A stretch of 64,000 nucleotides of DNA from Amanita rubescens. Taxonomy: Eukaryota; Basidiomycota; Agaricomycetes; Agaricales; Amanitaceae. The translations under genes were made by a program, and so were the position numbers. A model generated the notes under the pieces. That model was not told the origin of the DNA. It saw only the letters and a program-made list of their open reading frames with translations, and searched no databases. Where the stretch lies: assembly GCA_015039365.1 (NCBI GenBank), contig WION01000045.1, positions 62,001 to 126,000 on the forward strand. Reading direction: 5' to 3'. Each line of letters starts with the position of its first letter. The stretch's first letter is position 1. This document shows, in pieces, positions 56,801-57,670 of this stretch.

Positions 56801-57670
56801 TTTGTCATCTGGCTGGTGCGCCTTGGCTTTACTAACATTCTGTTTAGTTTGAACCATGGCACATGTTTACTTCTTTTATTCAATATCTTCTCATAGCACC
56901 GTCGTATATCAATGTCTTAAATGTTTATGCCGTAAGCATTTGTGTCTTCCATCATCCGCCAATTGATCTATGCCGAATAGTTTGCCAATGTTCACGACGT
57001 TTCATGGGGAACAAAGGGGGACAACAAGGTCAATACTGACCTTGGTGTCGTCAAGACGGGAGGAAATGAAGCCGAAGTACTTGTTCCAACTGAGCAAAAC
57101 GATATCAATACAGCATATGAGGATGCGCTAGAAGTATTGAAAACGAAACCTCCAAAGCAAGAGTCAAAACCTGATCCAGGTACACAACAAGAGGATTATT
57201 ACCGGACATTCAGAACAAAGTACGTGATACAAAATTAGGTAGACTTGTACGTGATCTAACATGTCGTCTTTAGTGTGAGTCACTGACATGAAATGCTGCA
57301 AAGCATTGCTGACAACCATCATCAATAAAGGTCCTTTTGGCCTGGACGTTGTCTAATGTGAGTATGCTGAATTTCCCAGCAGGGTATTGGGGCTCAATCT
57401 GTTGTAGGCGCTTCTGGCGGCAGGCATCCTGTAAGCGAGATATACTTTCTCCATCCCGTACCAACCTTGTTTGTAGCACAACGGGGACTGCGACCGGTTC
57501 GAGCAAAGCATTGGATGGTTACATGGCTTTCATATTGTATTCCGTTGCGGGCCTTGCGCGTGAGTACTATCATATCTTGCTTTGCGTTAATCTTGAAAAC
57601 TTGAATTTCAGTGGTTCGTTTTATTGGGTCAACAACGTACATGATTGTTCGTCTGTTTGCTGGAGAGTGA
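53889..57670 (+). CDS. Chitin synthase (GT2, class I-III type) with a one-nucleotide exon
   Basis: Many exons from MSRYTGIPE (53889-53915) to the stop at 57668-57670. The Pro-rich N-terminus contains NPYSSPPPQPPPPPPL. The catalytic part has RTELFIVMTMYNEDEELFCR, VSDGRKKIN, FNAFGPILQPNVCVLLDVGT, MYLAEDRV (EDR) and ELISQRRRWLNGSFFAA (QRRRW). Membrane helices and SWGTKGDNK follow. Near the end the frame needs: FRT then AA (exon end 57219), intron 57220-57273, exon T (57274 only), intron 57275-57330, then GTC for VLLAWTLSN. Further exons give ALLAAGIL, then TTGTATGSSKALDGYMAFIL and VRFIGSTTYMIVRLFAGE. Both flanking introns have GTACGT or GTGAGT donors, CTAAC or CTGAC branch motifs and AG ends. 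The enzyme extrudes chitin at the plasma membrane. Confidence 0.9.

Follow-up and report, generated by a model that had tools for sequence, protein, structure and literature searches.

The chitin-synthase gene of Amanita rubescens described here lies in a 64,000-nucleotide stretch of DNA (the window, on contig C385), and it raises the question of how a conserved peptide is encoded across a joint that appears to lack one base. Exon 14 (56981–57219, +) ends in TTC AGA ACA AA, that is FRT followed by AA in phase 2, and exon 16 (57331–57357, +), which encodes VLLAWTLSN and is in phase 0 at both ends, starts with GTC CTT TTG GCC TGG. The joint from FRT to VLLAW is one base short (modulo 3) unless T57274 is retained as an exon. 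An initial annotation had proposed such an arrangement, with two introns separated by a single T that completes an Asn codon as AA/T/GTC. On the evidence of the sequence, we put the probability that the gene carries a constitutive single-nucleotide exon at T57274 at about 0.92.

The whole-gene spliced model (53889–57670, +; 19 exons, stop codon included) yields a frame of 949 amino acids with its sole stop at the end, and all 18 introns are GT-AG; the 16 introns other than 14 and 15 measure 46–58 nt. A PF01644 match above the family cut-off falls on the exons of the gene (C385:116885–117523, corresponding to window positions 54885–55523, +). The matching solved chitin synthases were 7stl, 7xs6 and 8k3p, with which most of the protein could be aligned (residues 201–945 in the case of 7stl, E = 2.9e-224). 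Precomputed database domains place PF03142, PF08407 and PF01644 on Amanita homologues, and an NCBIfam scan of homologues P0001 and P0004 matched no family. Among the matches listed, the top-scoring relatives are proteins of A. brunnescens and A. polypyramis and one transcript-like protein, with proteins of A. phalloides and A. muscaria scoring just below them; five annotated Amanita proteins share 84.8–89.3% identity with the window protein over the aligned residues. This one gene would by itself place the window in Amanita or a near relative. With its family domains and near full-length similarity, the gene qualifies as an intact predicted chitin synthase.

The upstream intron of the pair, intron 14, occupies 57220–57273 (+; 54 nt) and reads GTACGT...CTAAC...TTTAG, with the branch-like CTAAC at 57256–57260; the downstream intron 15 occupies 57275–57330 (+; 56 nt) and reads GTGAGT...CTGAC...AAAG, with the branch-like CTGAC at 57309–57313. 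Exon 15, between them, is the single base T57274 (+), the third base of the Asn codon AA/T. Both introns are within the 46–58 nt range of the gene, and T57274 is flanked on each side by an ordinary-length GT-AG intron and required for both the frame and the family Asn, as is expected of a nuclear single-nucleotide coding exon. In computed translations, skipping T57274 throws the sequence out of frame and yields a different C-terminus, and retaining either intron 14 or intron 15 introduces an in-frame stop within a few codons. The coordinates, splice motifs and phases given for the joint in the initial annotation were reproduced by the spliced model and its 949-residue frame. Sequence, phases and coding consequences are matters of observation; use of the splice sites (strongly), order of removal and origin of the pair are inferred. 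As a separate observation, intron 14 holds its own donor sequence twice, as a 9-base repeat GTACGTGAT at 57220 and 57247; the second copy, 27 nt downstream, does not mend the frame when paired with the acceptor at 57330.

Single introns bounded by GT-AG, GC-AG or AT-AC pairs were enumerated within 57150–57360, and nine kept the frame without a stop, one of them GT-AG and eight AT-AC. It had been claimed initially that no single intron gives Asn and keeps the frame. The claim stands for Asn, but a frame-keeping GT-AG intron had been overlooked (57224–57330, 107 nt, donor GTGATA), whose product FRTKYVLLAW has one residue added. Six of the eight AT-AC introns destroy all or part of EDYYRTFRT, and the two that start at 57234 leave EDYYRTFRT and VLLAW intact at the price of 9 to 10 extra residues. 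When two introns with GT or GC donors were allowed, there were 12 solutions at a minimum intron length of 30 nt and 10 at 40 nt, and all except the one-base exon lose EDYYRTFRT. Stepwise removal of two GT-AG introns of at least 40 nt within 57181–57357, in any order or nesting, gave seven records in which both flanking motifs survive, and these yield just FRTN or FRTKY. Within this enumeration of one or two introns, the one-base exon is the sole GT-AG/GC-AG solution that retains EDYYRTFRT without an extra residue, and no other than the AA/T/GTC pair, as initially proposed, recovers the FRTN without insertion that all 30 listed transcript-like homologues have.

The homologue set comprises 143 distinct proteins from three overlapping searches (the best 120 of 4309 matches, 23 of 23, and the best 120 of 6025) and is a non-random sample. 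Thirty proteins whose only source is 'lgn' (21) or 'jgi' (9) form the transcript-like class; their frames are uninterrupted over 551–944 aa, on contigs of which the longest are 2.2–6.6 kb, and because they are uninterrupted in a gene with so many introns they presumably represent spliced RNA. The remaining 113 form the annotated class, in which P0018 and P0089 (mixed sources) were counted. In all 30 listed transcript-like homologues RT is followed by N and then directly by the V of VLL; three of these are Amanita-like (P0003, P0005 and P0006; 85–90% identity to the window protein), and P0005 and P0006 are 97–98% identical to two A. muscaria records. The solved chitin synthase 7stl has no gap at the joint. 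The 113 listed annotated proteins divide into 74 with a clean N, 8 with K and no insertion, 8 with KY or KC, 5 with K and a longer insertion, 11 with N and an insertion, and 7 unparsed sequences that depart from the family straight after FRT(N/K). The eight proteins with FRTKVLL (P0015, P0020, P0027, P0033, P0052, P0086, P0093 and P0118) may have a true Lys, at AAG/GT, or may be annotation errors; as they stand, they make the Asn less than absolute, and this was counted against the one-base exon.

The alternative that survives best is the 107-nt intron 57224–57330, which would dispense with the microexon altogether. It keeps the frame, has GT-AG ends and is the kind of intron that the gene models for A. 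brunnescens, A. polypyramis, Neolentinus and Plicaturopsis imply. When donors and acceptors were scored with a matrix trained on the 16 other introns of the gene, the donors at 57220 and 57275 reached 6.5 and 7.3 (ranks 13 and 6 among the gene's 236 GTs), as against 3.2 for the rival donor at 57224 (rank 71). The latter is weak but still inside the range of the 16 training donors (2.1–7.6), and that it exceeds the lowest real donor of the gene counts against the one-base exon. The same applies to the acceptors of introns 14 and 15, which at 4.1 and 5.0 (ranks 33 and 26 of 184 AGs) are low within the span of the 16 training acceptors (2.3–10.3). A length of 107 nt is, however, out of keeping with the 46–58 nt of the other 16 introns, and the insertion that this intron would produce is found in none of the 30 listed transcript-like homologues, nor in 7stl. 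We consider it very unlikely. For the one-base exon itself, a chance control was run in which the inner 100 bases were shuffled 200,000 times between a fixed outer donor and acceptor: the rate of AG-T-GTRNGT with both introns of 40–70 nt was 0.0009, and 1.5e-5 when each part also had to contain a branch-like motif, both being measures of this locus as distinct from a genome-wide frequency of the motif.

On the assumption of a single intron the joint formally lacks one base, as would follow if that base had been lost or misread in the assembly or if the allele were broken. In the genome searched (75.7 Mb, 786 contigs), a second haplotype contig, C760, carries the same gene and is identical over 56600–57680, although the alignment of C385 with C760 contains 46 mismatches and 10 gap positions in 6,956 bases (56 differing alignment columns over 52060–58940). 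Since two contigs that differ elsewhere agree at the joint, an assembly error is unlikely; the region 57200–57340, where such an error had been named at the outset as fatal to the one-base exon, is the same in both. The remainder of the gene is intact, and three other Amanita species show annotation trouble at the same codon, which leaves a missing base or a broken allele with a very slender chance. As an aside, no difference between C385 and C760 was observed over 56521–57853 (about 1.3 kb), despite 33 differing columns in the gene upstream.

A non-canonical single intron is scarcely credible: GT-AA at 57220–57329 would give FRTKVLLAW, with the K of 8/113 listed annotated homologues, but introns do not normally have GT-AA ends, and the two AT-AC pairs that preserve both motifs start from ATTAGGTA, which we take to be unlike a minor-class donor, and insert residues that none of the 30 listed transcript-like homologues contains. 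Equally remote is the reading of the pair as one complex intron, a stwintron or a recursive-splicing relay, with the T absent from the mRNA. In recursive splicing with a zero-length exon the acceptor AG is joined directly to the donor GT, whereas here one base lies between them (AG/T/GT). Adjoining introns that are obliged to leave consecutively do resemble fungal stwintrons (PMC9024468; PMC12403724), but in the [D1,2] stwintron, as described in the excerpt available, an internal intron splits the donor of the external one and nothing between them stays in the mRNA (PMC12403724); at the joint, the donor GTGAGT at 57275 is unsplit, one coding base is kept between the introns, and removal of the whole of 57220–57330 breaks the frame. 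By the features tested, T57274 is a predicted single-nucleotide exon and not part of a stwintron.

The one-base exon also predicts how gene models should fail. Insertions and deletions relative to the window protein were counted within 4 residues of each junction, the junction positions of the window gene being assumed for all homologues. At the FRTN/V junction, insertions were found in 27/113 listed annotated proteins vs 0/30 transcript-like ones, and deletions in 2/113 vs 0/30. Fourteen of the 15 other junctions past residue 225 have 0–4 insertions and 0–6 deletions per 113 annotated proteins; the exception, at residue 902 (insertions in 53/113 annotated and 22/30 transcript-like proteins), is a loop whose length varies in transcripts too. 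Fisher tests gave P = 0.0012 for 27/113 vs 0/30 and P = 9e-6 for 27/113 vs 4/113, values that are optimistic because the sequences are related. Exactly one extra residue was present in eight listed annotated proteins, always Tyr or Cys after Lys: KY in A. brunnescens, A. polypyramis, Neolentinus lepideus and Plicaturopsis crispa, and KC in Roridomyces roridus, Lyophyllum atratum, Pilatotrama ljubarskyi and Polyporus arcularius. KY or KC is the product expected from use of the GT four bases inside a donor AA/GTRYGT. Read-through of AAT/GTRAGT should in turn give NVS..., and 9 of the 11 proteins with N plus an insertion begin in this way.

In A. phalloides (P0004), KYVISIRRIPVAHSSNATVLLS is inserted ahead of VLLAW; its 22 codons equal in length AA plus a 63-nt first intron plus T, it begins with KYVI as the retained upstream intron of the window would, and its final Ser fits AG/T, so that the annotation reads as if intron 1 had been left in. 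The transcript-type protein P0003, which has N, is 90.5–91.7% identical to the A. brunnescens, A. polypyramis and A. phalloides proteins. For A. muscaria, one protein (P0039) jumps from FRTN straight to the last exon, and another (P0007) has a clean FRTNVLLAW, which was counted against the one-base exon. Annotations of three close Amanita species fail at exactly this codon, as the predicted structure would lead one to expect. The eight proteins with one extra residue belong to four orders (Agaricales, Amylocorticiales, Gloeophyllales and Polyporales); the order was looked up for six of the eight, that of A. polypyramis was taken from a looked-up species of the same genus, and Polyporus belongs to the Polyporales. 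Annotation errors spread over four orders suggest that the one-base exon may be old and shared, and we lean, with some reserve, towards an ancient exon common to several Agaricomycetes orders, namely these four, that annotation repeatedly misreads.

The origin of the intron pair was approached through the paralogues of the same genome (L031–L036), compared at the joint. L032 (C759) has one intron precisely between N and V (AAC/GTGAGT...CAG/GTA, 51 nt), equal in position and phase to the downstream intron 15; L036 (C24) has AAC GTT and no intron at the site; L031, L033 and L035 have FRTRL, likewise with no intron; and L034 (C288) gave no match at the site, its contig ending nearby. The downstream intron is likely the older of the pair, and because L032 has a single intron at that position, the upstream one probably arose beside it, by a gain one base upstream. 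Another possible origin is that proposed for a Fusarium gene, in which a lost base is rescued by a cryptic exon (PMC12940212, as excerpted). Gain of the upstream intron is preferred here, since rescue needs an ancestral intron of about 110 nt, as against 46–58 nt for the others and 51 nt in L032. Queries of 71 and 66 bases covering the two introns, run against the genome with very common words skipped, matched the two haplotype copies alone, and BLAST found no similarity between introns 14 and 15; a mobile or copied intron 14 (introner or intron duplication) is unsupported.

Splicing at the joint probably proceeds by intron definition, the two ordinary short GT-AG introns being removed one after the other, since a single base leaves no room for splicing factors to bind on both its sides simultaneously. 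Either order would give AA/T/GTC, Asn-Val and a normal protein; we have a mild preference for the downstream intron leaving first, because its donor is the stronger. With a frameshift if the T is skipped and a stop if an intron is retained, the full protein would come from the two-step product alone.

An exon of one base is as small as exon recognition can physically allow, and few such exons have been documented; the present candidate lies in a widely conserved chitin synthase. The precedents summarized here are given as they appear in the retrieved portions of the papers. A single-base coding exon was described in plant APC11, for which sequential intron removal by intron definition was proposed (PMC4674806), and in APC11 and VPS55 (PMC8831610). 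These exons are constitutive (APC11) or well conserved and mostly absent from annotations, as T57274 may be, but they are RNA-confirmed, belong to plants and to unrelated genes, and VPS55 also has exon-less forms. The closest parallel is the one-base exon of Fusarium CYP621A (Nelson and Syed, February 2026; PMC12940212), termed the first in a fungal gene and backed by RNA reads from two species. There too a nuclear fungal gene has one base between two short GT-AG introns that completes a codon of a conserved motif and was misannotated; CYP621A differs in being an ascomycete P450 in which a G forms the middle base of a Gly codon (AG/G/GT), with RNA-confirmed junctions and a suggested rescue of a lost base, in contrast to a basidiomycete chitin synthase in which T is the third base of Asn and an older downstream intron is likely. 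Single-nucleotide exons also occur between mitochondrial introns (PMC12308204; PMC5436844, placozoan cox1), with the same single base between two introns, but in Ophiostoma and Ceratocystis the base lies within an rRNA gene, between two group II introns as opposed to spliceosomal ones (PMC12308204). Microexons of 2–10 aa are reported in Phanerochaete P450 genes (PMC1184071), and in the retrieved parts of PMC3990503, PMC8022950 and PMC4014442 'microexon' refers only to a read-mapping option.

In the open-licence PMC literature, no single-nucleotide exon of a basidiomycete was found among the matches listed (25 of 731 in one search); by title and opening of the abstract, no listed paper dealt with the question of chitin-synthase intron positions, and none was listed on an Amanita chitin-synthase microexon. 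The initial annotation had cited a plant case and no basidiomycete one; within this literature both points hold, but the 2026 Fusarium case had been missed. As far as these searches reach, T57274 would be the first one-base exon in a basidiomycete. The wider pattern, if true, would offer a natural series of genomes in which to trace how such an exon is gained and lost and in what order its introns are spliced, and would mark a recurrent annotation error in mushroom genomes.

Two further features of the neighbouring DNA were recorded. Just 3' of the chitin-synthase gene, at 57895–58029, lies a cluster of near-palindromic CATGATCATG / CATTATCATG repeats, with six copies of a 20-nt unit and many inverted pairs. 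On the minus strand, ORFs of 108, 115 and 101 aa at 61766–63179 may be exons of one gene, perhaps a transposase-like or a nuclear gene, the transposase being our impression.
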